From Symbiopectobacterium purcellii (GTDB taxonomy: Bacteria > Pseudomonadota > Gammaproteobacteria > Enterobacterales > Enterobacteriaceae): a DNA stretch of 64,000 nucleotides. The notes beneath the pieces were generated by a model. The model was given only the letters and a program-made list of their open reading frames with translations, was not told the DNA's origin and ran no database searches. Shown one piece after another: positions 7,592 to 50,981 of the stretch. The DNA lies in NCBI RefSeq assembly GCF_019797845.1, contig NZ_CP081864.1, forward strand, positions 2,046,001 through 2,110,000, in the 5' to 3' direction. The position numbers and the translations under genes were made by a program. How positions within the stretch are numbered: position 1 is the first letter of the stretch; the number at the start of each line of letters is the position of its first letter.

Positions 7592-10500
7592 ATGGCCAAA
7601 AAGGATGCGCTGTTGATCCCTTTATTGAGCAGGATACTCGATGTTCCCGAAGCAGCATTACACGACGACAGTAATCTGATGCACTATGGCATGTACTCGA
7701 TGCGCACCATGCGTGCCGCGACCTGGTTACGGCGCGAGGGGATCGCCGTCACTTTCTCAGATTTTATCGATAAACGGACCGTTAAAGAGTGGCGTGAGGT
7801 GATCTCTGCTGCAAAAGCCTATCGCACGGTGGCCGATACGGATGCCCCGCCGTGCGATACGCCAGGGTTCGAACTTGCCACTATGCAGCACGCCTTTTGG
7901 ATTGGGCGTAACGAGCGGCAACAACTTGGAGGTGTAAGCGCTCATTTTTATGCTGAATTGGACGGTAAAGCGCTCGATCCAGAACGGCTGGCGAACGCGC
8001 TGAACCGCCTGATTCAACGCCATGACATGCTACGGTTGCGTATTGATCAGGACGCGCGTTTGCACATTGCGCCAGATAGCCCTTGTCAGCTACAGATCAA
8101 TGATTTGCGCGAGCTGTCTGCGGAGCAGTGTCATGGGAGTCTGGCCGCGTTGCGTCAGCGCTATACCCATCAGCAGTTGGATATTGCCAATGGTGAAACG
8201 CTGATGTTGGCGTTATCGCTGCTGCCAACAGGAGACAGTCGGCTGCATATCGATTTGGATATGATCGCTGGCGATGCCACGAGCCTGCGTCTCTTGCTGC
8301 GTGAGTTGGCGCAAAGCTATCGCCAACCGGATTATGCGTTACCGCCGTTGCGGTCAAGCTATCGTGACTACCAACAGCGCTGGCAAGAGAAGCATGAACA
8401 CCGTCGTGAGCAGGACAGAGCATGGTGGCAAACGCAGTTATCCCGCTTGGCGACATCGCCCGCTTTGCCCCTTCAATCATCAGAAAAAACCGTACCGGTA
8501 ACCGAAAGACGCTATCTGTGGCTCAACCCTACGCAGCAGCAGCAATTGACGACGATGAGTCACCAATTCGGGCTAAGCGTCCCGGTCGTGCTGGCAACGA
8601 TTTTTGGCGAGTGTATTGGTTTATGGAGCGGCGGTGCCCCCTTTCTGTTGAATTTACCAGTGTTTTCCCGCGATGAAGAGATAGAAGACGCCGATCGGTT
8701 GGTGGGCGATTTTTCCAGCTCAGTGCTGATTAACGTTGAGCCGAGCAGTGCTGCGAGCATTATCGAGCAGGCGCGTCAACTGCAAACCCAGCTTCACCGG
8801 GCGCTGGCACATACGGCGTGGAGTGGCGTTGATGTGCTACGCGATCTGTCGCGGCAGCAACAGATCAATGCCAGTCTGGCTCCGGTGGTGTTTACCAGCG
8901 CATTGGCGCTGGGCGATCTCTTTGAACCACCAGTGCGCGCGGTGTTAGGGGAGCCCGTGTGGTCGGTTTCTCAGGGGCCGCAGGTGTTGATTGATGCACA
9001 GGCTACTGAATACCTGAACGGCATCATGCTGAATTGGGATGTGCGTGCTGACAGATTTGCACCCGGTGTGATCGATGCCATGTTCGAGGGATTTCAGCAA
9101 CAGGTGCACGCGTTACTTAACGATATTACGTGCTGGCAGCGCCCACAGCCAGTGCCACCGCCGGTAGCCCCCTGGCCGCCAGAGATTGCCGAACCGGCCA
9201 ATGCGCCGACGCTGCTGCATCGATTCTTCATGCACGCCGAGCGAGATCCCGATGCTATCGCCTTGCAGTGGGGGGAGCACGGCGTACTGCATTACGGTGA
9301 ATTGGCGCAAAATGCCTTGTGCATTGCGCGTTTTCTCCATGAGCAGGGCATCAAAACGGGTGACAGTGTTGCCATCAGTATGGGGAAGGGGCCGGAGCAG
9401 GTGATGGCAGTATTAGGCGTTCTGGCTGCGGGGGCAACCTATGTTCCTTGCGGTATTGATATTCCGCTGGCGCGCCGCGAAGCCGTGTATCGTCTGGCGA
9501 ATGTAGCACTGGTGCTTTGTGACTCCCACAGTGCTTATCAGCCTGAATGGCCGCGGGGTATCCCGGTGCTTCCGCTGGTGCAAGGGCTGCAGGCGTTGCC
9601 GCTTGCGGCATCGGCCGAGGTGGATGAACAGCGGGCGATGTATGTCATCTTTACCTCCGGCACCACCGGGCAACCGAAAGGCGTTGCGGTTTCGCACCGC
9701 GCGGTTGCCAATACGGTGGACGGTGTTGATTCGCATTTCACTGTTACACCCAGCGATTGTACGATCACGCTATCCGCGCTTGATTTCGATCTCTCTGCCT
9801 ACGATATTTTCTCCTGCCTGAGCCGCGGCGCTCGCGTGGCCGTGGTTGACGAACAGCAACGCCGGGATGCCCATGCCTGGCTGGCGCTGATACAGCGCTA
9901 TGGTGTCAGCATCATCAGTTGTGTGCCTGCGCTGTTGGATATGATCCTCACCGCAGCCGGAGACACGCCACTGTCTTCTGCCCGGCTGGTTATGCTGGGG
10001 GGCGATCGTATTCCGGTGGCATTGGCGGAGCGGTGGTGGCGGCGCACGGCAGGAGCACCTTTCGTCGGGTTGGGTGGCATGACGGAGGCTGCAATCCACT
10101 CCACGTTATTCGTGCTGCATGCCGACGATCCACGCTGGACGCTGGTGCCTTTTGGTACGCCTCTACCCAATATGTATTGCCGTATTGTGGATGCTCTGGG
10201 GCGGGATTGCCCACCTTGGGTGGTCGGAGAACTGTGGGTCAGCGGCCCGGGATTGGCGCTGGGGTATCGTAACGATGCGGAGCGCACCGCGGTGAAGTTT
10301 GTGGCATGTGCCGGGCGACGCTGGTATCGCAGTGGTGACCGCGCCCGCTATTGGCCCGATGACACCATTGAGTATCTCGGGCGTAATGACCAGCAGATCA
10401 AGATTCGCGGGCACCGCATCGAGCCGGGTGAGGTGGAAGCGGCCCTGATGCGCCATCCCGCCATTCACAGCGCCTGCGTAACGGTAGTGGCACAGGCGAC

Positions 10501-13500
10501 CCGTCAACTCTGCGCCACGCTGGTGACCGATGAAAATAATAGCGCCAGCGTCTGGCAAGGCTGGTTGCAGCCGCTGCTGCCACGCTATGCCATTCCCGAA
10601 CATTACGTAGTTATACCCGCGATGCCGGTAACGGAAAACGGCAAAACGGACAGGGCGAGCGTAGAATACCTCGCCGCATCGCAGATTAACCTGGCGCGCA
10701 CCCCGCGTAGCACGCCTGAAAACGATATCGAACGGCAGGTTGCCGCGCTGTGGGCCATGCTGTTGAACGTTGACAGCGTGAGCCGTGAGGATAATTTTTT
10801 CGTTCTGGGTGGCGACAGCCTTATTGCCACGCGCTTGATTGCGGCGCTACGCGAACGGCAGTTGAGCGCGCCGTTACATGCTTTATTCACGTCCCCCGAA
10901 CTGCGCGATTTTTGCCATTATGTTCAAGCAGAAGTCGCTGTTTCACTGCCTATGCTGGTCGCCGATGACGCCGCGCGCTATCAACCCTTTCCACTCAGTG
11001 ATATTCAGCGTGCCTTCTGGATTGGTCGTAGTGAACAGATGACGCTGGGCGGCGTCGGCTCGCATTTTTATATCGAATTTGATGGTGAAGGGCTGGATGT
11101 CGCACGCCTTGAAGTCGCCTGGCAACAGTTGATCGCGCGTCACGCCATGCTGCGTGCGGTGGTGACCGACGCCGGGGAGCAGCAGGTGCTACCCGACACG
11201 CGGCTTTATCATATTGAACGCCATACCGCCTGCGATGATGTTGAAGGGGCGTTGCAGACCTGGCGCGATACGCTGTCGCACCGGGTTTACGATGTGCGTG
11301 AGTGGCCGCTGTTTTCCCTTCATGTGGTGGATTACCAACAAGGGGGGGACGCGCGCCAGCGGCTGATGGTCAGCCTCGACAGCATGATGTTCGATGGGCG
11401 TAGCATCATGATCCTGTTCACTGAATGGGATGCTTTATACCGCAATCCGACGGTGGAATTACCCGCGTTGCGCATCCATTATCGGGATTATCAATGTGGG
11501 CTGGCGGATCATAGTGCGGCACTGATGCCGCAGGCGAAGGCCTACTGGCTGGAGCAACTGAAGACGTTGCCCGCAGCGCCCGCCTTACCGTTGGCGGTAA
11601 GACCCGAGACGGTGGTGAAACCCCGCTTCCAGCGCAGGCGCTATGTGTTACCCGCGGAGTCATGGCAGCGTTTTATGTCGCAGGCGCAGCGGCATGGTAT
11701 CACCGTCAGCGTGGCGCTGGCGGCGGCCTACGGTGAAGTGCTGGCGTTCTGGAGCAATCAGTCTGCACTGGCGCTGAACTTCACGCTGTTCGATAGGCAG
11801 CCATTGCATCCCGATATTAACCGCGTGGTGGGGGATTTCGCCTCTATCCTGCTGCTCGGTTATGAAACTGCGCAGGGTAGAGATTTTTGTCAAGCGACCA
11901 TGCAGTTGCAGCAGCAAGTGGGGGAAGGGCTAAGCCATCGGCAGTTTTCTGGGGTGCAGGTTTTGCGTGAACTGGCCCGTTATCACGACCAAAGCATGGC
12001 TACGATGCCCGTCGTGTTCACCAGCGTGCTCGGGCTGGAAAAGGATGCATCGATGGCGCTGTCGGACGCGTTTCCCCGCGTACATTATTCGCTGACGCAA
12101 ACGCCGCAGGTGTGGCTCGATGCCAAAGTCAGCGAATCGCATGGGTGTCTGCTGCTGGAGTGGGACGTGGTGGAAGCCCTGTTTCCACCCGGCGTTATCG
12201 ACAGCCTGTTTGCCGCATACTGCCATCTGGTCGAAAGTCTGGTACAGGCAGACTGGTGCCAGCCAATATCGTTGTCGCTTCCCACAGAACAGCAGCGTCT
12301 AAGGGCACAAATCAACCAAACGGCGATGGATTTCGGTGATAACACCGTGCCTTACCTGCGCGTTTTTGCTCAAGCACAACGTGCCCCGCAAGCGACGGCG
12401 CTGGTATGGGGCGATCATGGCGTAATGCATTACGGTGAGATGACGCGTCAAGCGTTGAGCGTGGCGGCATATCTGGTGCAACAGGGCATGCAGCCAGGTG
12501 ACAAGGTGGCCATCACACACCGCAAGGGAGCGGCGCAGATTGTCGGGGTGCTAGGCGTGTTGGCAGCGGGAGGCTGCTATGTTCCTTGCAGTATCGCGTT
12601 ACCGCTGGCACGCCGCGAGCAGATTTACCAGGCGGCTCGGGTACGCTGTGTTCTGACTGACGATATGAGCCTGACACATCTCGATTGGCCTGCCGCGTTT
12701 CCCGTCGTGGCGCTCAGCACCGCGCTGGCTTGTGCCCCGTTACAAGAACCTGTCATTCAGCCGGGTCATGCGCCGATCTACGTTATTTTTACCTCAGGTA
12801 GCACTGGAGCACCCAAAGGGGTGGTGGTGAGCCATCGTGCGGTTGCCAATACTATTGATGCCGTCACCCGACGCTTTGATCTCAGCGTCAGCGATCGTTC
12901 CATGACGCTTTCTGCACTGGATTTTGATCTGTCGGCTTTTGATATTTTCACCTTCCTCGGCATCGGTGCTTCGCTGGCCGTGGTCGAAGAGCCTCAGTGG
13001 CGTGATGCGGCCGCCTGGGCGGTGTTGATGACTCGCTGGCAGGTTAGCGTGATCAGCGCCGTGCCAGCGCAAGTGGAGATGTTGACCATTGCAGCCCATG
13101 ACGGTGGGTTGCCACAGTCGCTGCGGCTGGTGATGGTGGGCGGCGATCGTATCTTGTACGCCTTGCCGCATCAGCTATGGGCGCTGGCGCCTCAAGCGCG
13201 CTTTGCGGCCCTGGGCGGTATGACGGAGGCGGCAATCCACGCGACTTGCTACATCGTCACCCCCGATGACCTCTGGTGGCCAGCGGCCCCGTATGGCGAG
13301 CCGCTGGCGAACATGCGCTGTCGGGTTGTCGATGGACAGGAACGCGATTGTCCGAATGGGGTGAAAGGTGAACTGTGGATCAGTGGTGCTGGACTTGCCG
13401 ACGGTTATATGGGTGATGCGCAACGCAGCGCGGAGAAGTTTGTTGTGCGCCAGGGTACCACTTGGTACCGCACTGGTGACCGGGCCTATTACCGCGACGA

Positions 13501-16500
13501 CGGCGTTCTGATTTTCTGTGGGCGCACTGATGGGCAAGTCAAAGTGCGAGGATATCGCATCGAACTGGCGGAAATCGAAGGCGCGTTAACCCGACTGCCG
13601 GAAGTGGACGAGGCGGTTGCCGTGCTTCTGGATGCGCCTTCGCCGCAGGTAGCTGCCGCACTGGTGTGTCCTGAGACCACCGAGATGGCGGAGATCAAGT
13701 TAACGCTGCAGGCGTGGTTACCTGAGTATGAAGTGCCTGAACACCTGATACGCATCGCCCGTGTGCCCTTGACGGCCAATGGCAAGATTGACCGAGCAGC
13801 CATTCGTGACGAGATGCAGTCCTATCTGAATGGCCTGCGTGATGAACGGGGAGGGGAACGCCCCGTCGGCCGGGCAGAGCAGGTTCTGGCAACGCTGTGG
13901 GGCGCATTGCTCGATCTGGATACGGTTACGCGTGAGGCGAACTTTTTTTCACTCGGTGGCGACAGCCTGATTGCTACCCGGCTAATCAGCCGCTTGCCCC
14001 AGGAGGGGTTTCACGGCTCGCTGGCGTCACTGTTTCGCCAGCCGGTGTTGCACGCGTTTGCGGCAACGCTGCGGGATGCTACGCCTGAACAACCAATCCG
14101 CTTACACCATGACGCCGCGCAGCGTTATCACCCGTTCCCGCTGAATGACGTGCAAGAGGCCTATTGGCTGGGGCGGCGCGACGGGTTTGTATTGGGAGGT
14201 ATTGCCGCTCAGTGCTACCACGAATACGAACTGCAACACGCCGATCTGATGCGACTTGAGCACGCCTGGAACCAGTTGGTGATGCGGCATGACATGCTGC
14301 GCTGCGTTATCAGTGAGGATGGTCAACAGTCCATCATGGAAGAGGTCCCCTATTTTTACTTCCGTTACCACGACTTACGCCATTTGACCGATGCGTCAGC
14401 ACAGTTGGCATTGCTCAGAAACCGAATGGCGCATCAGATTCTGTCTGCCAGCAGCGGCAGGCTCTACGACATTACGTTGATTGACTATGGTGCTGGGAAA
14501 TCGCGCCTTGCGGTGCTGTTCGATAATTTGATTGTCGATGGTTTAAGCATGTTGACGCTGTTTAGTGAATGGTTCGAATGCTACCAAAATCCGGAGACTG
14601 AACTCCCCCCGCTGGCGATACAGTTCCGTGATTATCAGTGCTGGCGTGCGCAGCAGGGACAGGCGCAAGAGGATATCGTCTACTGGCAGCAGCGCTTTGA
14701 TGCGTTGCCGCCAGCGCCCGCATTGCCGACACGGATGGTGCCTGCTGCCATCATCACGCCGCGTTTTCGTCGACTGGAAGCGCAGCTCGAACCCGCACTG
14801 TGGCGACAGCTCAGCGATCGCGCGCGTCAGGTGCAAATTACCCCCTCAGTGCTGCTCTTGACCTGCTTTGCGGAAACATTGAGTCGGTGGAGTGGGCAAA
14901 AAGCGTTGGTGATCACCTTGACGCAGTTCGACCGCCAACCGCTTCATCCCGACATCAACCGTGTCGTGGGTGATTTTACCTCGCTGACGCTGGCAGAGTA
15001 TCACGCCGATAACGCCGAGAGCTGGCTAAGGCACGCCCAGCGGTTGCAGGAGCAAGTGTGGCGCGATCTTGGCCACGCCTCCGTGTCTGCGATTTCGGTA
15101 CAACGCGCGCTGGCACAGCGAGCAGGCAATGAGATGCAGGCCGCACCCGTGGTGTTCACCAGTATGCTGGGTGTGGCCGATACGCTGGCTAAAGCGGTGC
15201 CCTGGCCGAACTACACCTGTTCGCAAACGCCGCAGGTGTGGCTTGATCATCAGGCCATTGATTTAGCCGATGGTGTGTTGCTCAGTTGGGATTATCTGGA
15301 AGAGCTGTTTTTACCGGACATGATTGAGCAGATGTTTGCCTGGTACTGCCACACGCTGCGCGCGTTGGCAGGCAATGATTGGCTGGCGCCGCCGATGAGG
15401 GATTTGCCCGTTGCGCAGCGCCAGATACGACTCCAGGCCAACACGACCGGCGGCCCGATGCCAAACCATCGGGCGCTGCATGACGCCTTTTTCAGCCAGG
15501 CGCAGCAGTGGCCCGAGCGCCCAGCGCTGTGGGATAGCGTGAACGGCCACCTGAGCTACGGTGCGCTGCGGGAACAGGCGCTGACGGTTGCGGCCGGACT
15601 GCTACACCACGGTATTCACGCGGGAGATTGTGTCGCATTGTGCTTGCCGTCAGGTAGCGAGCGCATGGTGGCGCTGCTTGGCATCCTTGCCGCTGGTGCG
15701 GCCTATTTGCCCCTCAATCAGGCGCACCCCATCGCGCGCCACGCCCTGCTTTGCCGTAAGGGGCGCGCGAAGGCCGTTATTTGCGACAACGAACTATCGT
15801 TCGCCTTACCGACCTACTCGCTGTCCTCATTACGGGCCAACGCGCCGTTAACGGCACCGATTATTCCGCCGGACGATACGCTTGCCTACGTGCTGTTTAC
15901 CTCTGGAACCACCGGGGAGCCCAAAGGCGTGATGGTTGAACACCGTAATGTGCTCAATACGCTGGAGACGGTGTGTCAGCAACTTGATATCTCGGCGCAG
16001 GATGTCTTTCTGGCCGTTTCCGCGCTGGATTTTGACCTGTCGGTGTTTGATCTGTTCGCCGCGCTGAGCGTGGGCGGGCTGGTGGTGTTGGTGGAAGACT
16101 CGCCCCATCATGATGCAGATCGCTGGTTAACGCTGATGTCTACCCACGGTGTCAGCGTATGGAACAGTGTGCCGTCGTTGTTCGATATGCTGCATACCCT
16201 CGCGCGTGCGCGGCAGGTGACACTGCCCGATCTGCGTATTGCCTTGTTATCGGGAGATTGGGTGGAGCCTGATAGCGGAGAACGGCTACGCACGTTCGCG
16301 CCGTCAGCACAGGGGTTTGCGTTGGGCGGGGCTACCGAGGCCGCAATCTGGTCCTCGATATGGCCGCTCTCCTCACCACGACCGGAAGGATGCCACTCGG
16401 TGCCCTACGGCTTCCCTCTGAGAAATCAGCGTTTCCGCGTAGTGGACACATTGGGCAATGACACGCCTGACTGGGTGCCCGGTGAACTGTGGATTGGCGG

Positions 16501-25602: not shown

Positions 25603-25605
25603 ACG

Positions 25606-26310
25606 ATGGACGATTTCTACTCACCCGTAGCGGAATATTATGACCTGGTGGCCAGAGCGCATTCAGAAGGCGATACCGTGCTTCGGGAACGCCTGGCGGC
25701 CACTGCGTTAAATGGCGAACCGATCCTGGATCTTGGCGCGGGAACCGGGCGCACGGTCGCGGCCATTGCTGAGAGCGTGCCGCAGTGTGACATTTTGGCG
25801 GTGGAACCGGCACCGGCCATGCGCGCCGTGTTGATGCACCGCGTTGTCAACGATCCGCATCTGCGTCAGCGCGTGACGGTAGTCGCTGAACCTGTGGATA
25901 AATTGCACCTGCCTGACAAACTGGGCGCCGTGGTGGCCTATGGCGTATTGGGGCATCTGTGTCGGGAAAAACGCCAGCAGCTATGGCAGCTACTGTTACC
26001 GCGCCTGTCAGCTGGCGCTCCGATTTTTGTTGAACTGTTGCCGCTGGAAAAACCCATTGTACTGCCCGCCTTTCCGCTCGCTTGTGAAACGGTAGGTAAA
26101 CGGCATTACACCGCATCATTGCAAGGCGAACCGGGGCCAGACGATACTATGCTGCTGACGTCCTGCTGGACGATACGCGGCGGGCCTTGCCCGGCGCAGG
26201 TGATCCGTAATCAGAGCGTCTGGCACACATTTAGTCTGGCGGAACTTGCGCAGGAAACGCGGTTGCGTGCAGAACGTCTCACCGCTCAGGCCGGGGTGCT
26301 TTATGCATAA
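25606..26310 (+). CDS. Class I SAM-dependent methyltransferase
   Basis: A 234-residue stand-alone methyltransferase three bases after the thioesterase gene. Motif I is LDLGAGTGRT (about residues 42-51), followed by an acidic strand end (LAVEPAPAMR) and a post-II region (VVAYGVLGHL). It is separate from the methyltransferase embedded in NRPS 2, so the pathway has two methylation steps. Possible targets are a ring carbon or nitrogen, the salicyl oxygen or a carboxyl group; the sequence does not decide. Its stop overlaps the next start by eight bases. Confidence 0.88.
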   Translation: MDDFYSPVAEYYDLVARAHSEGDTVLRERLAATALNGEPILDLGAGTGRTVAAIAESVPQCDILAVEPAPAMRAVLMHRVVNDPHLRQRVTVVAEPVDKLHLPDKLGAVVAYGVLGHLCREKRQQLWQLLLPRLSAGAPIFVELLPLEKPIVLPAFPLACETVGKRHYTASLQGEPGPDDTMLLTSCWTIRGGPCPAQVIRNQSVWHTFSLAELAQETRLRAERLTAQAGVLYA

Positions 26311-29310: not shown

Positions 29311-29344
29311 GGAAGCAACATCGAGGGACTGGAGGAAGGGTTAC

Positions 29345-30298: not shown

Positions 30299-30385
30299 TG
30301 CTGGCTCCAATCACAGCTGTTTTAGCTTTTATCATAGTTAAGTTCGCTGGGGTGGCGTCGGGCCTCCCCCTACACTCTCCGCACT

Positions 30386-30404
30386 GAAAATAATTATCAT
30401 TTCT
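30386..30404. promoter_or_regulatory. Fur-like box upstream of the TonB receptor
   Basis: GAAAATAATTATCATTTCT matches the consensus Fur box GATAATGATAATCATTATC at 13 of 19 positions by hand count. It sits 27 bp before the receptor start, where a bound repressor would block the promoter. This supports iron-repressed uptake. A Zur site is not evident here. Confidence 0.65.
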
Positions 30405-30430
30405 TTTTTTCGCTGCGTTGAGGGATGGAC

Positions 30431-32650: not shown

Positions 32651-32704
32651 CCGTTGTGCCGTACTGTGCGGCGCCCGTTGGCATTATCAGGATTCAGGAT
32701 TCGA

Positions 32705-34240
32705 ATGAGAAAACAGAGAAAAACACTGTGGGTTGTTGCACTTCTTGCTCTGCTGGTTGCTGCCGTTGGGTTCTTCTGGAGACATAGCGACATCGCTGAT
32801 ACCTCGCGTGATGACAAAACGCTGCGTGTGGTCATGCTTGGCAGTCAAAATGAGACGCTGGAGTATGGTCAGGCCCAAACCTACTTTCCCTGGGCGGTGA
32901 TGGGAAACGTGTGTGATGTGCTGGTCAGATGGCGCAATGGGCGGCTGGAGTACCAGTTGGCAACGGCCATTGAACCGAATGAAGATGCAACTCGCTGGAC
33001 GATACGTCTGCGTCCCGATGTCTATTTCTCTGATGGTAGCCGATTATCGGCTACCAACGTGTTGACCAGCCTACAGCAGTTGTCGCAGTCCATCGGCTTT
33101 GGCAGTTTTTTTCAGGATGTTGATTTTACGCGGAGTGTTGTAACGGATGCCTTGACGCTGAGGTTACAACTGCACCATCCGCGCGCCGATCTGGTTCCTG
33201 CGGTGCTGGCGGCGGCCAGTATGGTGTGGAAAGCGGGTACGCAGACCGGCGATTTCCCCGTGTGCAGCGGTCCCTGGCAGGTGAGCCTCTTTGACGGCAT
33301 CAACGGTGCCGAACTCACGCGTAACCCGTATGCCTGGCAACCTGTCGTTTACTTTGAACGCATCGTAATCCGTCCCTTGGCCGATGCGGCTGCGCGTGTC
33401 AATGCGTTGCTCAGCGGTGCCGCCGATTATGCGTTTGATATTCCCGTGAGCAGTGCGCGCATGTTGAACGGACAGCCCAAATACCGCGTGCTGCGCAGCG
33501 GTATCGTCGGTGCCAACGCCTTCTATTTTTCAATGAACACGCGTATTCCGCCTTTTAACGACGTTGAAGTGCGTCAGGCATTGAAGGCGCTGGTGAATCG
33601 TCAACAGTTAGTGGATGTGGTGTTGGAAGGGTATGGTTATCCGGGTAACGATTTGTTTGGTCAAGGTCTGCCCGGGGGGAATACGCTGGCCTGGCCGATA
33701 AAACACGATGTTGAGGCCGCTCGTCAGGTGTTTGCGCAAAAAGGCATTACTGCATTAACCCTGCTGACGGCCGACTTGACCCCTGGGCTTAACAACGCCG
33801 CCGAACTGCTGCGCCAGCAACTGGCAGAGATTGACGTCACGCTGACGCTGGTGCGGCTTAACCCGGCAGACTATCTCAGTGACATTCGGCGGCTCCATCA
33901 AGCGCCGTTAATGGCCATGTTTGCCCTCAATCGCCCCTTTGTCGCCGCGCTACCCGTGCTGTTTGGCGACAATAATCCCTATAACTACGGCGGATGGTAT
34001 CCCTCCAGTATGGTAGAGCGAGTGACTCGCCTGCGCGCCACGCCCGAACCGTCGTTACAGCAACCGCTGTTGCAACAATTGCAAAGGCAAGTCATGCATG
34101 ACGGGCCCTATCTGGTGTGGGGTTACCGCGATCAATTGTCAGCGGCAGTTACTGACTTGCAGGGCGTGGAATTAAGCCAGGGGGTACCGCTGTTTGCTTA
34201 TGCAGACTGGATAAAAGGTGCGTCGGCAAATGGCCGTTAA
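32705..34240 (+). CDS. ABC importer substrate-binding protein, Dpp/Nik family (SBP_bac_5)
   Basis: A 511-residue protein started at ATG 32705 (AGGA upstream). The N-terminus (KTLWVVALLALLVAAVGFFW after RKQR) is a signal anchor without a lipobox Cys. The mature part has the peptide/nickel-binding class layout: NVCDVLVRWRNG, ATRWTIRLRPDVYFSDGSRLSATNV, then FNDVEVRQALKALVNRQQLVDVV. It lies 54 bp after the receptor gene and begins a four-gene importer. That class carries peptides, nickel chelates or opine metallophores. Its position suggests it binds the cluster's own metallophore or a precursor in the periplasm (inference). Confidence 0.88.
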   Translation: MRKQRKTLWVVALLALLVAAVGFFWRHSDIADTSRDDKTLRVVMLGSQNETLEYGQAQTYFPWAVMGNVCDVLVRWRNGRLEYQLATAIEPNEDATRWTIRLRPDVYFSDGSRLSATNVLTSLQQLSQSIGFGSFFQDVDFTRSVVTDALTLRLQLHHPRADLVPAVLAAASMVWKAGTQTGDFPVCSGPWQVSLFDGINGAELTRNPYAWQPVVYFERIVIRPLADAAARVNALLSGAADYAFDIPVSSARMLNGQPKYRVLRSGIVGANAFYFSMNTRIPPFNDVEVRQALKALVNRQQLVDVVLEGYGYPGNDLFGQGLPGGNTLAWPIKHDVEAARQVFAQKGITALTLLTADLTPGLNNAAELLRQQLAEIDVTLTLVRLNPADYLSDIRRLHQAPLMAMFALNRPFVAALPVLFGDNNPYNYGGWYPSSMVERVTRLRATPEPSLQQPLLQQLQRQVMHDGPYLVWGYRDQLSAAVTDLQGVELSQGVPLFAYADWIKGASANGR

Positions 34241-35183
34241 TCTCAGGCGATTCTGCCTGCTGCGGGTGCTGACCACGCTGTTTTCTCTGTGGTTGGTGAG
34301 CGTACTGACGTTTTATGCGGTGGCAACGGCCCCCGGTGATGCGGTGAACAGGGCACTGGGCGATCGGGCAACGCCGTCGGCGCTGGCCTACTGGCGTCAT
34401 CAATACGGGCTGGATAAACCGGTAATGGTGCGCTATTTGCACTGGTTTAAGGGCGCGTTAAGTGGTGAATGGGGCCATTCACTGACGAGCCAGCGGCCCG
34501 TGACAGATGTGGTTCTGCCCGCCATGAAGCGCAGTGCCACGCTGGCGACCTGTGCGGCCGTTGTGATGTTGTTGCTGGGGTTCTCTGGCGGGATTATCTC
34601 GGCACTCTGTCACAGGGCATGGCCCGATCGATGGTTATCCGCGCTCGCCCTGGCTGGGCTGAGTATCCCTGAGTTTGTGATTGCCACACTGCTCATTCTG
34701 ATCTTTTCAGTGTGGATGGGTGTGCTGCCAGCGGTATCCCTCTCGGTTGACACTGCCAGTGTTGCCGAGCAGGTGCGTAATCTGGTGCTGCCTGCATTGA
34801 CATTAGGGCTGGTTGCCGGGTGCTACCTGCAGCGGATGGTGCGTATTACGTTGTTACAGCAGGTTCAGGCTCCGTGGTTCATCAGTGCCCGATTAAACGG
34901 TGTAACGACGGGGGCTCTACTGCGCGACTATCTATTGCCGAACGCGGCGGCGTCGTTTATTCCGATTGTTGCTGTTACCCTTCCTTATCTATTGGGTGGA
35001 GCAATTGTGGTTGAGCGCCTGTTTGGCTACCCCGGTCTGGGCAGTATGTGGGTTGACGCATTTAATGCCCGAGACGGCGCTTTACTTCAGGCGATTGTGA
35101 TGCTGCTGGCGCTGAATACCGCTGTGTGCTGGCTGGTCGCGGATAGCCTTTCCACACTGATCGCGCGGCGTAGTACGGTATGA
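34230..35183 (+). CDS. ABC importer permease, DppB/NikB family
   Basis: A 317-residue inner-membrane permease. ATG 34230 overlaps the end of the binding-protein gene; a GTG at 34218 lies directly on the AAAAGG ribosome site. The N-terminus has the family's first membrane helix, then DKPVMVRYLHWFKGALSGEWGHSL. The EAA-loop region (RLNGVTTGALLRDYLLPNA) and VERLFGYPGLGSMWVDA near the end are typical of DppB/NikB. About six membrane spans are evident. Confidence 0.9.
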   Translation: MAVNLRRFCLLRVLTTLFSLWLVSVLTFYAVATAPGDAVNRALGDRATPSALAYWRHQYGLDKPVMVRYLHWFKGALSGEWGHSLTSQRPVTDVVLPAMKRSATLATCAAVVMLLLGFSGGIISALCHRAWPDRWLSALALAGLSIPEFVIATLLILIFSVWMGVLPAVSLSVDTASVAEQVRNLVLPALTLGLVAGCYLQRMVRITLLQQVQAPWFISARLNGVTTGALLRDYLLPNAAASFIPIVAVTLPYLLGGAIVVERLFGYPGLGSMWVDAFNARDGALLQAIVMLLALNTAVCWLVADSLSTLIARRSTV

Positions 35184-35932
35184 AAACGGTGGTATTGGTG
35201 CTGTTGTGCGTTCTGTTCGCGCCGTTTTTAGCGCCGTATGATCCGGCGCGTAGCGTAGGGTTGCCGTGGCAAGTGCCGGATGCGCTGTTTTGGTGTGGAA
35301 CCGACGCGTTGGGGCGTGATGTGCTAAGCCGTACCCTGCACGGTGGCGTTGCCATGTTGCTGTTTTCGCTGATGGCTACATTGGTGGCGTCCATGGTCGG
35401 ACTCGTCACGGGCATGGGGCTGCTGGTGTTACCCGATCGCGGGTATGCAGTGACGGCGCTGTTAGACAGTATCCTGATGTTGCCGCCGCTGTTGATCGTG
35501 ATGATGACCTATTATGCGCTCGGTCCCTCACCCCTAACCCTACTATTCGCCATCATACTGCTGAACGTGCCCTTTACTGCACGGTTCATCCGCGCGCTGG
35601 CAGAGCCGATGCTGGACAGCGATTACGTGATGGTGGCCCGTGCCGCAGGCGATTCTACCGGTCTGTTGCTTCGACGTGAAATCCTGCCGGGGGTGTGTCC
35701 GGCGCTGTTGGGCGATGGTGCAACGCGGCTGGTGGGGGCATTTTATCTGTTTTCTGCGGCCAGCTTTCTGGGCATCAATGCAGTCGGACAGGGGAATGAC
35801 TGGGCGAGCATGGTCCGCGAGAGCCTGGAAGGGATGGCGCTCAATCCCTGTGCCTTGTTCTTGCCTGCGGTCAGCATCGCCAGCGTGATGATATTGATCA
35901 ATCGGGCCGTGGACCGCCGGGGGTTCCGATGA
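35180..35932 (+). CDS. ABC importer permease, DppC/NikC family
   Basis: A 250-residue permease whose ATG overlaps the previous stop (ATGA). GTDALGRDVLSRTLHGG near residue 40 is the DppC/NikC hallmark. The EAA loop reads YVMVARAAGDSTGLLLRREILPG. It is shorter than the usual 280-300 residues because the N-terminal tail is nearly absent, but the membrane core looks complete. It should pair with the DppB-like permease. Confidence 0.9.
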   Translation: MKTVVLVLLCVLFAPFLAPYDPARSVGLPWQVPDALFWCGTDALGRDVLSRTLHGGVAMLLFSLMATLVASMVGLVTGMGLLVLPDRGYAVTALLDSILMLPPLLIVMMTYYALGPSPLTLLFAIILLNVPFTARFIRALAEPMLDSDYVMVARAAGDSTGLLLRREILPGVCPALLGDGATRLVGAFYLFSAASFLGINAVGQGNDWASMVRESLEGMALNPCALFLPAVSIASVMILINRAVDRRGFR

Positions 35933-37449
35933 GGTCGCTGGTGTTGCAGGTGACGAAATTAGGCGTTGAAGACGCTGTAGGTAACCCGGTGCTGGCCGGC
36001 ATCTCTTTCTGTCTTGGTATCGATGACGTGCTGGCCGTTGTCGGGTGCAGCGGGGCGGGGAAGAGTACCCTGCTGCGATCGCTGCTCGGGGAACTTGCAC
36101 CGGGAATGCGTCGGGTGGCAGGGGAGATCTTCTGTTGCGGTTGCGCAGTTCATGATGCCGACGGTGAACGTTTACGAACGTTGCGTGCACAGCAGTGCGC
36201 CTGGCTGGGGCAGGATCCGGCACAGGAACTGGTGCCCACTCAGCGGGTTGAACAACTGTTGCTGGGTTTTGTATCAAAAACACCTGAAACATTAAGTGAC
36301 GCTGTCACGTTACTGCGCGCGATAGGATTACCCACGGATAACACTTTCCTGCGTCGTTATCCGCATCAACTGTCTGGCGGTCAACGGCGGCGTGTGGCGT
36401 TAATTCGCGTGCTGCTCAAGCGGCCTCGCTTACTCCTGTTGGATGAGCCTTTCGCCGGTATTGATGACGCACAGCGGTATAACATGATTGCGGTGCTGAG
36501 GCATTGGCAGCGAGGGCATCGCGGTGCGTTGCTGTTTATCAGCCATGATGCAACCAGTGTGCGTGACTTGGCAACCCATATCCTGGTGTTACAGCACGGG
36601 CAGCAGCAGGCTTACGGCCACGTGGACAGTCTGCTGGCGCAGAAAGATATTCCCTTGTTGAACCCGTGGCAGGTACCGGATAGCGCACCGATCTCGCTAT
36701 CGGTCGCTACGCGCTCGCGCCCTGTGCTTGAACTCGACAGCCTGTTGCTGTCTCTGCCGTACTCAGAAAACCTGCTGCCGCCGTTGTCCTTGCAGCTTTA
36801 TGCCGGAGAAATGGTGGCATTACACGGCGTGTCCGGCGTGGGGAAAAGTACGCTCGCTAAAACCGTGATCGGGCTTCTGGCACCTCGGCAAGGAACGCTG
36901 CGCTTAGCTGGGGAACCGTTGGCGACGGCGGTTCAACAGCGTCAACGTGGTCAACAGCAGGCGGTAGCGTTGGTGCCGCAGGATCCGGCGAGAACCCTCA
37001 ATCCCTTTCGGCGCGTTGGTGCGCAGTTATATCAGGCACTGCGGCGTTACGGCCTCCATCAGGAGTACAGCGTTGAACACTTACTGGCGGCGGTGGCCTT
37101 GCCAGCGGCTTGTGCCCTGCGCTTTCCGGCACAGCTATCCGGTGGGGAATTGCAGCGGGTTGCTTTGGCACGCGCGCTGGCCGCTAAACCTACCGTGTTG
37201 ATTTGTGATGAAGTCACTTCAGCGCTGGATGCGCTCACCGCCAGACAAATTCTTGTGCTTTTACAACGTCTTTGCCATGAACACCACATGGCACTGTTGT
37301 TGATCACGCATCAGGTGGAAAGCGTACGTGCGCTGTGCCATCGGGTGTTACTGCTTAGCCCCGCGTCGGGCATCACCCCTTCATTACCCCAGCAACAAGG
37401 AGAGCCCGTTAATGACGGAGCCGATAACCCCTCTATCATCACCTACTGA
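35929..37449 (+). CDS. ABC importer ATPase, fused DppD-DppF-like double NBD
   Basis: A 506-residue protein holding two nucleotide-binding domains in one chain. NBD1 has Walker A GCSGAGKST, signature LSGGQRRRVAL and Walker B LLLLDEP. NBD2 has GVSGVGKST, LSGGELQRVALARAL and LICDEVTSALDAL. Most Dpp/Nik systems use two separate ATPase genes; here they are fused. The start overlaps the previous stop (ATGA). The C-terminal tail of this gene runs 38 bases past the next start. Confidence 0.92.
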   Translation: MRSLVLQVTKLGVEDAVGNPVLAGISFCLGIDDVLAVVGCSGAGKSTLLRSLLGELAPGMRRVAGEIFCCGCAVHDADGERLRTLRAQQCAWLGQDPAQELVPTQRVEQLLLGFVSKTPETLSDAVTLLRAIGLPTDNTFLRRYPHQLSGGQRRRVALIRVLLKRPRLLLLDEPFAGIDDAQRYNMIAVLRHWQRGHRGALLFISHDATSVRDLATHILVLQHGQQQAYGHVDSLLAQKDIPLLNPWQVPDSAPISLSVATRSRPVLELDSLLLSLPYSENLLPPLSLQLYAGEMVALHGVSGVGKSTLAKTVIGLLAPRQGTLRLAGEPLATAVQQRQRGQQQAVALVPQDPARTLNPFRRVGAQLYQALRRYGLHQEYSVEHLLAAVALPAACALRFPAQLSGGELQRVALARALAAKPTVLICDEVTSALDALTARQILVLLQRLCHEHHMALLLITHQVESVRALCHRVLLLSPASGITPSLPQQQGEPVNDGADNPSIITY

Positions 37450-39199
37450 TTCGCTTGAGAGTATCAATCCGACGTCACTGTTAGCGCCTATTCGTGGTTG
37501 GATCACGTTTGCCGCAGTGCTGCAACTGTTTTCGGCGGGGTTGGTGTTGGTACCGCTGGTTGAATTGTGTGAACTGATCCAGGTGTTGATGAGTACGTCG
37601 CTGACGCGACATAAGGAGGCCTGGCACGTCATTATGCTGGCCTGCGCCTGTCTGGCTTCCGGTTTGGCCCTGCGCGGCCTGGCGGAACTGATTACTCATC
37701 TGGCCGATAATCGTTTGGCCTTATCGCTACGCCGCCAATTAGCGCAACGCCTGTCTCAGGCACCGCTCGGCTGGTTTACTGCCCAGACCAGCGGACGGAT
37801 CAAACAAGGGCTTCAGGATGACGTTACGGCAATTCATCATCTGGTAGCGCATGCCTGGCTCAATATCACCAATGCGAGCGCCACATTGCTGTTTGTCTAC
37901 GGTTATCTGCTGTGGGTTGACTGGCGTATGACGCTGGTGGCGCTGGTGCCGCTGCTGCTGTTTACGGTGTTCTATCGGCAAGTGCAGAAAGGGTGTCAAC
38001 GCAAAATGTCAGAATACGGTACAGCGCTGACACAGGTAAACCAATCGGTGGTGGAGTACGTTCAGGGCATCACCGTGGTCAAGACTTTTGGGCTCAGCGG
38101 TAAAGCCCATCAGGCTTATTGTCAGGCAACAACGGGGTTTCAACGTTTCTTCTTGGATTGGGCGCTGCCGCTGATCAAGCCTGAGTGTTTGTCTGCTGTG
38201 ATGATCGCGCCCATTACTATGCTGATGTTGATGCTGGTCGGCGGCATCGGGTTGATGCATCAGGGGATGCTTGGGATGACACAACTGCTCCCGTTTCTGG
38301 TGATTGCGCTCGGGATCTCTGTGCCCGTGACCACACTGAGCCATAGCGCGCAATCCCTGCGTATGGCGAAAGCCGCGTTAGAGCGGCTTGCCACACTGTT
38401 GACGATCCCGCTGCAACCGGAGCCGACGCTGAGCCGGTTTCCTCAGAATAACGAGGTAGTGTTTGACCAGATTGATTTTGGTTATCAGCCTGGTACCACC
38501 CTGTTACACAACATCTCGCTCACCCTCACGCCAGGCACGGTAACCGCGCTGGTGGGTGCCTCTGGCGCGGGAAAATCAACGCTGGCGCGCTTATTGTTGC
38601 GCTTCGATGTGCCCGACCACGGCCAAATTACCTTGGGTGGCATTGAGTTGAGCCAGATTGACAGCCGACATTTATACCGCCAGATCGGTACTGTGTTTCA
38701 GGACACGCGACTGTTGCGAATGAGTTTGTATGACAACATTGCGCTGGGCGATCCGCAGGCCAGTAAAGAGCAGGTGGTCGCCGCCGCCAAGGCGGCGCAT
38801 ATTCACGAGCGCATTCTGTGTTTACCGCGCGGTTATCAATCGGTATACGGCGATGATGCCACACTGTCAGGCGGTGAGGAACAGCGGGTTAGCATTGCCC
38901 GCGCGCTGTTACTGAAACCTGCCGTGCTGGTGTTGGATGAGCCCACCGCGCAGGCGGATGCGGAATCAGAAGCCGCGATACAGTCAGCGTTCAATGCATT
39001 GATCGCGCACCAACGTCGTCAGGTGGTGCTGGTGATCGCCCACCGGCTGGAGACCATCACGCACGCAGATAACATTGTCGTGCTGTCGCATGGCCGTATT
39101 GACGCGCAAGGGTGTCATGCCGATTTGTTGGCCGGTGGCGGTGAATATGCACGGCTGTGGGCGGTACAACAAGGGCAACAGGAGGCAATATGCTGTTGA
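37412..39199 (+). CDS. ABC transporter with fused membrane and ATPase domains, YbtP-like
   Basis: A 595-residue half-transporter started at ATG 37412 (AAGGAGA upstream) inside the end of the ATPase gene. About six membrane spans occupy the first 320 residues. The ATPase domain has GASGAGKSTLARL, LSGGEEQRVSIARALLLKP and VLVLDEPTAQAD. YbtP and YbtQ have an exporter fold yet carry Fe-yersiniabactin inward across the inner membrane. This gene and the next are the matching pair here, so uptake is the favoured role, though export is possible. Confidence 0.88.
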   Translation: MTEPITPLSSPTDSLESINPTSLLAPIRGWITFAAVLQLFSAGLVLVPLVELCELIQVLMSTSLTRHKEAWHVIMLACACLASGLALRGLAELITHLADNRLALSLRRQLAQRLSQAPLGWFTAQTSGRIKQGLQDDVTAIHHLVAHAWLNITNASATLLFVYGYLLWVDWRMTLVALVPLLLFTVFYRQVQKGCQRKMSEYGTALTQVNQSVVEYVQGITVVKTFGLSGKAHQAYCQATTGFQRFFLDWALPLIKPECLSAVMIAPITMLMLMLVGGIGLMHQGMLGMTQLLPFLVIALGISVPVTTLSHSAQSLRMAKAALERLATLLTIPLQPEPTLSRFPQNNEVVFDQIDFGYQPGTTLLHNISLTLTPGTVTALVGASGAGKSTLARLLLRFDVPDHGQITLGGIELSQIDSRHLYRQIGTVFQDTRLLRMSLYDNIALGDPQASKEQVVAAAKAAHIHERILCLPRGYQSVYGDDATLSGGEEQRVSIARALLLKPAVLVLDEPTAQADAESEAAIQSAFNALIAHQRRQVVLVIAHRLETITHADNIVVLSHGRIDAQGCHADLLAGGGEYARLWAVQQGQQEAICC

Positions 39200-40959
39200 T
39201 GCGCCTGACCAGACTGATGGGGAAATCTCACGCGTTGTTGCTGCGGCATTATTTGCTATGGGTGTTTAGCTATTGTCTGATGCAGGGGCTGACGTTTGTA
39301 CTGGTGGTGCCCATTATCCACGCTCTGCTGGATCTGCGCGTGGACGATGCGTTGATGTGGTTGCTGCCGTTAGGCGTGGGGGTGGTGCTAACCGGGTATT
39401 TGCACTATCGCGCGGCGTACAGTGGATTTCAGGTGGCGGCAACGTTAATGAGCCAATTGCGTCGTCGCATTGGCGATCATGTGGTCACATTACCACTGGG
39501 CTGGTTTGTGCGCGCCAATACCAGCCGATTGGGCCTATTACTCAGTCAGGGCGTGATGGAGATCCTGGGATTGCCTGCCCACCAGTTAACCCCCTTGTTA
39601 CGGGCGGTGATCACGCCAGCGGTGGTGGTGGTGGCAACCAGTTTTTTCGACTGGCGCGTAGCACTGTGCGCGGCGTTTCTGTTTCCCATGCTGGGGCTGG
39701 TGTATTGGTGGGCCGGACGGCTGGGGCGCACCGCTGATCGAGCCGTTCAGACGGCCAATGCACAGGCGTGCGATCGCATGGTGGAGTTTGCGCAAAGTCA
39801 GCCGGTGTTACGCACCTATGGCAAGTCCGCACAGGGATATCAACAGTTTGATCAGGCACTTGTGGCGCAAAGCCGGGCTGGGCGGCGTCAGTTATGGCTG
39901 GTGTTGCCGCCGTTGCTGTTAAACACCTGGTTGGGGCAATTGGCGTTGATGGGGCTGATGGCAGGGATTACCTGGCTGGTGGTGATGGAAGGCGATGCGG
40001 CGCAGCAAACCACGCTGTTTGCCTTACTGGTGCTGGTGAGCAGGGTTATCGATCCCCTCAGTGAGGTGGCCTCTTATGGCTCAGGTATCCGTATGGCGTC
40101 AGCCCAAATGGAAGCGGCTGAAAACGTGTTGTCACAACTGTCGTTACCGGCACCGACAGAGCCCGTGCCTTTACCACAACACTACACCATCGAATTACGT
40201 GATGTGACCTTCAGCTATCAGCCCGGTGTTAGGGCGCTGCAGCGTGTTTCCGCGACGTTGCCAGCTAATAGCGTGACCGCCGTGGTAGGAGCATCCGGTT
40301 CGGGAAAAACCACCTTGACCAAATTGATTGCCCGTTTTTTCGATCCGGATAATGGGGTGATTGCTATTGGCGGCATTAATGTGAAGAGTTTCCCTGTCAT
40401 GCAACACATGAATATGATTTCACAAGTGTTTCAGGACAATTATCTGTTCAGTGGTACTCTGCGGGAAAACCTGATGATGGGAAACCCGGCCGCTGATGAT
40501 GACACCTTGAAAAACGTTCTGAAACTGACGCGTTTGGACGAGGTTGTGCAGCGCTTACCGCTGGGACTCGATAGTCGGGTTGGAGAAGGGGGCGGATTTC
40601 TGTCGGGGGGGGAACGCCAGCGTGCCGCACTGGCACGTGCATTGCTGAAAAATGCGCCAATCCTGCTGCTGGATGAGGCGACCGGTGCGTTGGATCCGGA
40701 AAACCAGGAAGCGATCGCGCAGGGGCTTAACGCGTTGCGTGGTCACTGCACCATGCTGGTCATTGCCCATCAACTGCACACTATCCGCAATGCAGACAAC
40801 ATTTTAGTGCTTGACCACGGGCAAATTGTGGAACAGGGCAATCATCAACAGTTGTTGGCCAAGAATGGACGCTACGCGGCCCTTTGGCAGGCAAAAGTTC
40901 GCGCTGAAGGATGGCGTATTGTTCATCCCCGAGAAGATCAAGGAGGAGATAATGTCTGA
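39190..40959 (+). CDS. ABC transporter with fused membrane and ATPase domains, YbtQ-like
   Basis: A 589-residue half-transporter, partner of the preceding gene. ATG 39190 has AGGAGG upstream and overlaps the previous stop by ten bases. The membrane domain spans about residues 1-310. The ATPase part has GASGSGKTTLTKL, FLSGGERQRAALARALLKN and ILLLDEATGALD. The pair probably forms a heterodimer. Confidence 0.88.
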   Translation: MLLMRLTRLMGKSHALLLRHYLLWVFSYCLMQGLTFVLVVPIIHALLDLRVDDALMWLLPLGVGVVLTGYLHYRAAYSGFQVAATLMSQLRRRIGDHVVTLPLGWFVRANTSRLGLLLSQGVMEILGLPAHQLTPLLRAVITPAVVVVATSFFDWRVALCAAFLFPMLGLVYWWAGRLGRTADRAVQTANAQACDRMVEFAQSQPVLRTYGKSAQGYQQFDQALVAQSRAGRRQLWLVLPPLLLNTWLGQLALMGLMAGITWLVVMEGDAAQQTTLFALLVLVSRVIDPLSEVASYGSGIRMASAQMEAAENVLSQLSLPAPTEPVPLPQHYTIELRDVTFSYQPGVRALQRVSATLPANSVTAVVGASGSGKTTLTKLIARFFDPDNGVIAIGGINVKSFPVMQHMNMISQVFQDNYLFSGTLRENLMMGNPAADDDTLKNVLKLTRLDEVVQRLPLGLDSRVGEGGGFLSGGERQRAALARALLKNAPILLLDEATGALDPENQEAIAQGLNALRGHCTMLVIAHQLHTIRNADNILVLDHGQIVEQGNHQQLLAKNGRYAALWQAKVRAEGWRIVHPREDQGGDNV

Positions 40960-42229
40960 GCATCTTTGTGACAGTGAACGTTGCGCGACGTATTGGCCGT
41001 TGCCTGATGTTGATTTAACGGATTTGACGCTGTTCTCTCAGGGCTTCCCCCATGACGTGTTCACTCAATTACGACAGAATGATGGCGTGCTGTATCATCC
41101 GGCTACGCCGTTAACGCCGGATAATGAAGGTTTTTGGGTGTTCACTCGCTATCAGGATATTGTACCGCTCGCCAGAGATATCGATACCTTCTCCTCACAC
41201 CGTGGTGGCGCTCGTACCGGAGGCGGAACCATGATTGAGGATCTTCCCAGCGCCGCAGGGCCAGGGACCGTCATCAATATGATGGACGATCCGCGTCACA
41301 AAGCGTTGCGGCGTCTGATGGCTCCGGGGATCACCCGTGGGCGCATTGCTGCGCTGGAGCCGGTTCTCACCGTGGCGGCACGTCAGGCCATCGTGAGCGC
41401 ATTAACCAAAGGCGAAGGGGATTTTGTGTCGGATATTGCCGCCGAACTTCCGCTGTTTGCCATTGCGCATTTGGTCGGGATTCCTCCTGAAGATCGGCAC
41501 CCGATCTCGGGGTGGATTAACGCGGTGCTTGATTATGCCGATCGTCAATTAGGGCAGAGCAGTGCCAGCAGTCAGCAAGGCATGCAGCAGTTTATGGCTT
41601 ACGCGCAGCGCTTTGTGGAACAACGCCGTCAGGCTCCCGGTGATGACATTGTTTCGCTGGCAATTGCGGGAGAACTGTCTGCCGAACTGGGCAGCTTAAC
41701 GCCGATGGAGCAAGTGATGGTGTTTAGCGTGGTGATGGTGGCCGGCTTGGAAACCACGCGTAATGCTATTGCGGGGGGAATACTGACGTTTATTCAGCAT
41801 CCGCAGCAGTGGCTGCTGTTGCAACGTGAACCTGTGCGAATGAACCGGGCGCTGGAGGAAATTCTACGCTGGACCTCTCCCACGCCGTACAACCGCCGCA
41901 CCGCGACGCGTGATGTTGACGTCGCGGGTAAGCGCATCAAAGCTGGCGAGAAAGTGACACTGTGGTGGGCTTCTGCCAATCGCGATGAACAGCAGTTTGA
42001 AAACCCCTTTGCTTTTGATATCTGTCGGGAAAAAAATGCCCATTTAGCGTTCGGTAGTGGGGGACACAGCTGTCTGGGGGCGCAGTTGGCGACGCTGGAG
42101 ATGCGGGTTGTCTTTCGGGAATTGCTAAACCACATTGATACCTTCGCCTTAAACGGTCCCGTGGAATGGGTGCGCAGCAACAAGCACACCGGTATTCGGC
42201 GTATGCCGCTGCGCTACAAAGGGTTATAG
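40952..42229 (+). CDS. Cytochrome P450
   Basis: A 425-residue P450, the normal size for a soluble bacterial enzyme. ATG 40952 has AAGGAGGAG upstream and overlaps the transporter stop. The heme-binding loop is FGSGGHSCLG with the ligand Cys374. The I-helix reads AGLETTRNA and the ExxR segment EEILRW. As last gene of the operon it probably oxidises the metallophore, for example thiazoline to thiazole or ring hydroxylation (inference). Yersiniabactin and pyochelin loci have no such gene; the Streptomyces coelibactin locus, as I recall it, does. Confidence 0.93.
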   Translation: MSEHLCDSERCATYWPLPDVDLTDLTLFSQGFPHDVFTQLRQNDGVLYHPATPLTPDNEGFWVFTRYQDIVPLARDIDTFSSHRGGARTGGGTMIEDLPSAAGPGTVINMMDDPRHKALRRLMAPGITRGRIAALEPVLTVAARQAIVSALTKGEGDFVSDIAAELPLFAIAHLVGIPPEDRHPISGWINAVLDYADRQLGQSSASSQQGMQQFMAYAQRFVEQRRQAPGDDIVSLAIAGELSAELGSLTPMEQVMVFSVVMVAGLETTRNAIAGGILTFIQHPQQWLLLQREPVRMNRALEEILRWTSPTPYNRRTATRDVDVAGKRIKAGEKVTLWWASANRDEQQFENPFAFDICREKNAHLAFGSGGHSCLGAQLATLEMRVVFRELLNHIDTFALNGPVEWVRSNKHTGIRRMPLRYKGL

Positions 42230-50975: not shown

Positions 50976-50981
50976 CGTTTA

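Follow-up and report, generated by a model that had tools for sequence, protein, structure and literature searches.

A chromosomal four-module metallophore gene cluster of Symbiopectobacterium purcellii with a predicted salicylate-O-O-S-S ring order

A gene cluster of the coelibactin/sorangibactin/transvalencin kind was identified at positions 7592-42229 of a 64,000-nucleotide window of Symbiopectobacterium purcellii (NZ_CP081864.1), a bacterium associated with insects and plants. It is predicted to make a salicylate-capped metallophore with two oxygen-type and two sulphur-type rings (O-O-S-S). The window is the whole stretch of DNA that was analysed; all coordinates refer to it, and the cluster features given below lie on the forward strand. 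The host genome is a single contig of 4.94 Mb. The cluster genes overlap or almost abut in two rightward runs, one from the first non-ribosomal peptide synthetase gene (NRPS1) to an AraC-family regulator gene (7592-30298) and the other from a TonB-dependent receptor gene to a cytochrome P450 gene (30425-42229), separated by 126 bases. A Pfam profile search of the entire chromosome at E 0.001 gave four Condensation matches, every one inside 7592-42229. No match to IucA/IucC was found in the host genome, and two matches to the phosphopantetheinyl-transferase family lie outside the cluster. GC content is 0.53-0.59 between 8 and 44 kb, against 0.50-0.53 in the outer parts of the window; it is high at 44-52 kb as well.

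Pfam was run on the translations of 20 open reading frames (ORFs), which include all cluster genes. NRPS1 (7583/7592-17236) contains three Condensation, three AMP-binding and four PP-binding stretches, read as an aryl carrier protein domain (ArCP) followed by three modules of heterocyclisation, adenylation and peptidyl carrier protein domains (Cy-A-PCP). The in-frame ATG at 7592 is preceded by an AGGAGA site, and the carrier serine of the ArCP lies in the motif GMYS. The domains located in this protein are Cy1 (Pfam core, 7880-8884), A1 (9227-10645), PCP1 (10736-10924), Cy2 (10979-12268), A2 (12368-13813), Cy3 (14087-15373) and A3 (15497-16939). NRPS2 (17233-22647) contains a TubC docking domain, Cy4, A4 (N-terminal part, 18823-20052), a methyltransferase (MT) inserted in A4 (20644-21162), a PCP and a thioesterase (TE, 21700-22644) with a cysteine nucleophile (GYCLGG). 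All four Condensation domains are of the Cy type, with the motifs DMIAGD, DSMMFD, DNLIVD and ELIALD in Cy1 to Cy4, respectively. The downstream threonine (PVVFTS) and aspartate (QxPQVxxD), which have a catalytic role in Cy domains, are kept in all four. No polyketide synthase (PKS) domain, ketosynthase (KS) or acyltransferase (AT), was found among the 20 ORFs. An ArCP with tandem Cy-A-PCP modules that closes with Cy-A-MT-PCP-TE is the layout of coelibactin/sorangibactin-type lines, and four rings are well supported by collinearity.

The first run continues with genes for tailoring and starter supply. These encode an SrbE-type reductase of the saccharopine-dehydrogenase fold (22644-23768; Pfam and comparison), which is proposed to be a second imine (thiazoline) reductase, an Irp3-like thiazolinyl imine reductase (23765-24844; TIGR01761, 313 bits against a cut-off of 189), a type II thioesterase (24811-25602; Pfam), a stand-alone methyltransferase (25606-26310; Pfam), an aryl (salicyl)-AMP ligase (26246-27967) and a salicylate synthase (27964-29310; TIGR03494, 503.6 bits against a cut-off of 325). 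The best match of the ligase is to TIGR02275, a dihydroxybenzoate ligase model, at 489 bits, under its cut-off of 724. The P450 (40811-42229) was compared with solved chains and with P450s in the loci of relatives. Its nearest solved relatives are CYP125/CYP126; it shows 25-31% identity to P450s of actinobacterial loci, 27% to the P450 near NRPS1 of Nocardia uniformis, and at most 31% to those of other loci outside its own clade. A role in oxazole formation, as in sorangibactin, is weakened by this distance and by the CYP125/126 affinity.

A sequence-only reading of this DNA had described one aryl carrier and four Cy-A-PCP modules on two proteins with a terminal thioesterase, and the Pfam matches and Cy motifs confirm it. 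The start at 7592 stands, and the salicylate synthase, salicyl-AMP ligase, two reductases, two methyltransferases and P450 named there were all recovered by Pfam or TIGR matches. A metallophore locus with no polyketide unit is likewise supported, no PKS domain having been found. The docking domain, type II thioesterase, AraC regulator, TonB receptor, Nik/Opp-type importer and two ABC permease-ATPases are parts of the cluster beyond those of that reading.

The specificity codes of the A domains were read at nine of ten positions by anchored motifs, with the tenth, lysine, assumed. They are DLYSMGLIH(K) in A1, DLFSMGLIH(K) in A2, DLFNLSLIW(K) in A3 and DLYNLSLIW(K) in A4. The codes of A3 and A4 are cysteine codes; that of the cysteine enzyme PchE, read by eye from the alignment, is DLFNLSLIW. 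A1 and A2 carry G301 and H331 and are predicted to use serine or threonine, which the code does not separate, and to form oxazolines. The predicted order is thus salicylate-O-O-S-S. Codes were surveyed in 51 of 120 listed NRPS1 relatives (the top 45 by rank and six hand-picked). The O-O-S pattern was found in all of the 15 top-ranked proteins (P0001-P0015; 52-91% identity, 99-100% coverage), which include those of Serratia symbiotica and Bradyrhizobium, and the same pattern is present in the Pantoea and Enterobacter loci. In these 15 proteins A1 is DLYSMGLIH in 14 and DLYQMGLIH in P0003, whereas A2 is DL[YF]SMGLIH and A3 is DLFNLS[LM]IW throughout. Another 17 of the 51, mostly named Nocardia, have the A1 code of the window (one with V for I) and cysteine codes in A2 and A3. 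None of the other 19 carries the G301/H331 pair in two of its A domains, although the motif search may overlook a domain. Two of these 19, the two-module proteins P0101 (Pendulispora brunnea) and P0028 (Pseudomonas synxantha), combine an A1 carrying G301 and H331 with a cysteine A2.

The link between this code and an oxygen ring was calibrated on two compounds. Feeding of the sorangibactin producer, strain MSr11367, is described as indicating one serine and two cysteines, where antiSMASH predicted cysteine for every A domain (PMC10127202). Uniformide A is given as C23H26O6N4S3Cl2Zn (PMC11364655), and its four nitrogens and three sulphurs imply one oxygen ring out of four. A related cluster (L036, L124 and L125) in the genome of its producer, N. 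uniformis NBRC 13702, has DLYSMGLIH in A1, DLFNLSLIW in A2 and DLWNLSLIW in the terminal A domain. The G301/H331 code accompanies the oxygen ring in both cases; the window carries it twice, so two oxygen rings are predicted.

The second oxygen-type A domain was placed in a FastTree phylogeny of 45 A domains, which included five of the 16 window-type proteins. The A1 domains of the window type form a clade with support 0.88, the A2 domains one with 1.00, and the two clades are sisters (0.99). Both join the A1 domains of Nocardia and a single A1 of Phytoactinopolyspora in a larger clade (1.00). A3 falls with the A2 and A3 domains of Nocardia (0.97). Since the A2 clade is sister to the A1 clade, the A domain of module 2 most likely arose by duplication of an oxygen-type one. 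The tree also shows A2 and A3 almost identical within each of P0021 and P0026 (Nocardia type), and all three A domains of P0023 (Aquaspirillum) almost identical to one another. This near-identity suggests recent duplication or gene conversion in those proteins.

Several known metallophores share parts of this cluster. Transvalencin A and uniformide A are described as zinc-bound compounds with an aryl ring and four joined five-membered heterocycles (PMC11364655). The sequence-only reading had proposed salicylate plus four heterocyclised residues, which holds, on a scaffold that it did not recognise. That second part is rejected, since aryl-capped four-ring zinc compounds are known from Nocardia. 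The uniformide producer's cluster shares with the window the A1 code and the glutamate of Cy4, and its SrbE-like, Irp3-like and methyltransferase proteins show 42%, 54% and 51% identity, respectively. Four modules with an aryl cap, as in the window, are also indicated in N. puris and N. cyriacigeorgica, which have 3+1 A domains. The Nocardia (transvalencin/uniformide) pattern is O-S-S-S (the 17 NRPS1 with cysteine A2 and A3), in contrast to O-O-S-S in the window. The aryl ring of uniformide is chlorinated and no TonB match was found in the Nocardia cluster, unlike in the window.

Sorangibactin A, from the myxobacterium MSr11367, has in the account of PMC10127202 a salicylate cap, heterocyclising modules, an HC-A-MT-CP-TE end with a cysteine TE, SrbE and Irp3-like reductases and trans-acting methyltransferases, as in the window. 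It differs in its three heterocyclising modules (one serine, two cysteines; O-S-S against O-O-S-S), the VOC protein SrbJ and the homocysteine thiolactone end. SrbJ is described there as required for sorangibactin and absent in coelibactin. A figure legend equates sorangibactin A with anthrochelin D (PMC11934131). The coelibactin cluster of Streptomyces coelicolor is of the same kind as the window cluster, with an SrbE-like gene, a P450 and a cysteine TE, but its product is only predicted and its P450 is CYP105N1. It has fewer modules than the window cluster. Like coelibactin/sorangibactin-type clusters, the window has SrbE-like and Irp3-like reductase genes and a cysteine TE.

The mupirochelin cluster of Pseudomonas sp. 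NCIMB 10586 resembles the window in its salicylate cap, AraC regulator, TonB receptors and thiazolinyl and saccharopine-type reductases. It encodes a three-residue backbone, unlike the four-module line of the window, whereas a four-residue structure was proposed for mupirochelin from tandem mass spectrometry and zinc binding was suggested by liquid chromatography-mass spectrometry. The published formula, C22H28N4O4S3 (509.1345), is that of sorangibactin C. If mupirochelin were a homocysteine thiolactone, its synthesis would not require the module iteration that has been proposed. The mass arithmetic used here returns 507.1189 for sorangibactin A and 509.1345 for C22H28N4O4S3, both as published. 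For the product of the window cluster, taken as the acid after two reductions and two methylations, it predicts an [M+H]+ of 479.1417 with two serines (477.1261 if one ring is an azole) and of 507.1730 with two threonines; the two-serine form ending in a homocysteine thiolactone would be at 578.1560. Lusichelins are described as having PKS steps between the rings and kineochelins as having one oxazoline.

The second run opens with transport genes. These encode the TonB-dependent receptor (30425-32650; Pfam above cut-off, siderophore-receptor model TIGR01783 below cut-off), an ABC importer of the Nik/Opp type composed of a solute-binding protein, two permeases and a fused double ATPase (32654-37449), and two ABC permease-ATPase half transporters (37328-40959; profile matches). 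The importer proteins resemble nickel/oligopeptide importers, for which solved relatives were found, and match the named models below their curated cut-offs. Importer genes of this type are present in the Pantoea and Enterobacter 10-1 loci. In the B. cajani stretches neither Nik/Opp-type importer genes nor a TonB match was found, and the salicylate-synthase match has only 26% identity.

The AraC-family regulator (29216-30298; profile match) ends the first run. A motif, [AT]TTKRGCN6CATAG, precedes NRPS1 (7452-7469) and the TonB receptor gene (30320-30337); since an AraC gene lies in the same operon, it is a candidate AraC operator. It was drafted post hoc, by eye, from the promoters of the window and Pantoea, and its first wording missed Pantoea and was widened by one letter. 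Two matches to the first wording lie in the window, and the Pantoea locus has two to the widened form, against 0.03 expected in each case. Over the genome as a whole, three matches to the first wording (one outside the cluster) compare with four to a reversed control pattern, so frequency is no evidence and only position and conservation count. The motif precedes both genes in the window, NZEC151, Pantoea and Enterobacter 10-1, and lies before the TonB gene in S. endolongispinus. Among 136 loci it occurs in ten, nine from these organisms and one unrelated (L013); none was found in the B. cajani locus. A weak Fur-like box (30386-30404) matches a Fur consensus at 14 of 19 letters. It is the only one of three such sites in the 64 kb at this threshold or above (3492, 30386 and 52814) that precedes a cluster gene, and it recurs in Symbiopectobacterium loci L020/L135, L021 and L023. 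No site of at least 14/19 was found in the corresponding 300 bases of Pantoea and Enterobacter 10-1 (best 13), and a scan with a Zur consensus gave no match at 16/23 letters.

The cluster is rare and patchy, as SrbE at E <=1e-30 was found in four of 392 genomes of a family sample (all Symbiopectobacterium, including the window's own) and in one of 369 of a class sample, the window's own. No match to the 4-kb stretch 20235-24233 was found in E. coli genomes. NRPS2 shows 91% identity in Candidatus Symbiopectobacterium sp. NZEC151, which was isolated from potato according to PMC10019282. A plasmid of Pantoea sp. At-9b, conjugative by PLSDB typing, has the gene order of the window from NRPS1 to the P450. 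Other named relatives are Enterobacter sp. 10-1, Serratia symbiotica, Bradyrhizobium and Klebsiella michiganensis (SrbE only seen), with one record labelled Salmonella, a label that is unconfirmed. A Klebsiella pneumoniae plasmid, pINF237_01-VP (L019), carries a separate NRPS cluster with a TonB receptor, whose Irp3-like and Nik/Opp-like matches have 31-38% identity.

Next to NRPS1 lies a divergent M20 peptidase gene (5903-7150), with 93% identity in NZEC151 and no match in the Pantoea locus. Beyond the cluster, two large minus-strand genes (43943-51115) encode a GH94 phosphorylase of 1226 residues and a glucoamylase/glycosyltransferase protein of 1141 residues that ends in a GH94-domain piece. 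We take these to be possible pieces of a single gene resembling a cyclic-glucan synthase gene.

The cluster is thus probably a chromosomal four-module metallophore cluster of the coelibactin/sorangibactin/transvalencin kind that makes a salicylate-O-O-S-S product, tailored and re-imported as follows. Chorismate would be converted to salicylate, which would be activated and loaded onto the ArCP of NRPS1. Two oxazolines would form as modules 1 and 2 each add and cyclise serine or threonine, and two thiazolines as modules 3 and 4 do so with cysteine. The Irp3-like and SrbE-like imine reductases would reduce the two thiazolines to thiazolidines, which the inserted and stand-alone methyltransferases would N-methylate. 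The P450 may oxidise one ring or carbon, and the cysteine thioesterase would release the chain, most likely as an acid. The complex with iron, zinc or nickel would return through the TonB receptor and then the inner-membrane ABC importer, and the AraC regulator would activate both operons. A fuller joint reading can be offered only tentatively. The product would be a salicyl-bis-oxazol(in)e-bis-thiazolidine metallophore, made by Bradyrhizobium and by enterobacteria of three or more genera. Its extra oxygen ring would stem from duplication of a Ser/Thr A domain, and its rings would be tuned by a CYP125/126-like P450 that was recruited independently. In Enterobacterales, a Nik/Opp importer would take up the intact complex with a divalent metal (nickel or zinc) and not serve iron alone.

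Several points weigh against this interpretation. The product is a prediction from the genes. The code-to-substrate link has two calibrations; the sorangibactin code came from a related strain's protein and not from SrbC, and the published assignment of the uniformide cluster is bioinformatic. NRPS1 of N. uniformis is split between contigs, with a putative third module in the gap. The wider clade uniting all G301/H331 A domains has a support of only 0.68. What the P450 and each methyltransferase would do is a proposal. The line itself may be impaired at Cy4, where glutamate replaces the first aspartate of the DxxxxD motif, and possibly also at the ArCP of the window strain, where tyrosine for aspartate beside the carrier serine could be a natural loss of function.

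Release is the step at which another outcome is compatible with O-O-S-S. The thioesterase could add homocysteine or methionine and form a gamma-thiolactone end, as in sorangibactin, on top of the four rings; the TE has the nucleophilic cysteine that is described as essential in sorangibactin. This cysteine is, however, present in 12 of 16 aligned NRPS2 (Enterobacterales, Bradyrhizobium, Pseudomonas, Azospirillum, Lentzea, Actinomadura and one Streptomyces), whereas three Nocardia proteins have serine (GYSVGG) and one Streptomyces neither residue. It is also found in the Pseudomonas protegens 14B2 line with two cysteine modules, which presumably resembles that of enantio-pyochelin, a free acid. 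SrbJ had no match among the cluster ORFs, to which the search was limited, and the intergenic gaps of at most 126 bases leave no space for it. A thiolactone end is weakened to a rather unlikely option, and hydrolysis to the acid is favoured because lines with two cysteine modules in Pseudomonas share the cysteine and SrbJ is missing from the cluster.

A transvalencin-type product, with one oxygen and three sulphur rings, would require module 2 to use cysteine despite its code. The 17 mostly Nocardia proteins, which share the three-A-domain NRPS1 layout and, apart from a single letter in one of them, the A1 code of the window, and the four-ring zinc compounds of the Nocardia group speak for it. 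Yet A2 lacks the N278, S301 and W331 of the cysteine code and has S, G and H like A1 in all 16 window-type proteins, and in the tree it clusters with A1 and not with cysteine A domains, which makes this product unlikely.

Three rings or no product would result if a module were skipped or lost, or if the line were silent in the window strain. At the ArCP core (7688-7702) the window has GMYS, against G[LM]DS in all 18 other NRPS1 proteins compared, and decaying copies occur in other Symbiopectobacterium genomes. The NRPS genes are fragmented in genome G002, genome G001 retains an 87-residue NRPS2 tail with stop-bearing SrbE and AMP-ligase genes, and the NRPS frames of L023 are broken; by these signs the locus is decaying in L021, L023, L139 and L140. 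Against an impaired line, the two NRPS reading frames are uninterrupted by stops in the window strain and in NZEC151. The Cy4 glutamate is common to nine of the 16 aligned NRPS2 (window, NZEC151, Pantoea, Enterobacter 10-1, Bradyrhizobium cajani, three Nocardia and Lentzea), the other seven (Pseudomonas, Streptomyces, Actinomadura and Azospirillum) having aspartate. Impairment is therefore quite improbable. Pyochelin and yersiniabactin share the salicylate start, Cy modules and thiazolinyl imine reductase with the window, pyochelin having two Cy modules and yersiniabactin a PKS step between thiazolines. A product like either is rejected on the four modules and the lack of KS and AT domains among the 20 ORFs.

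The locus is real and complete, and its product is likely four-ringed; its kind and the four-ring aryl scaffold are already known, and the ring order and some of its parts are probably new. The sequence-only reading had left oxygen and sulphur rings undistinguished, and the novelty lies in their order. Among the matches listed, the literature searched contained neither an O-O-S-S order nor a named product of this cluster, and the order looks new. The distinct P450, the Nik/Opp-type importer and the common promoter motif are further differences from known relatives. The analysis assigns a known chemical kind to an orphan, conserved and partly plasmid-borne cluster family of Enterobacterales and Bradyrhizobium, and predicts exact masses. 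It provides testable proposals for the role of the SrbE protein, as a second imine reductase, and for the origin of the extra oxygen ring, by A-domain duplication. The promoter motif and the importer type may bear on whether such molecules serve iron or divalent-metal acquisition.

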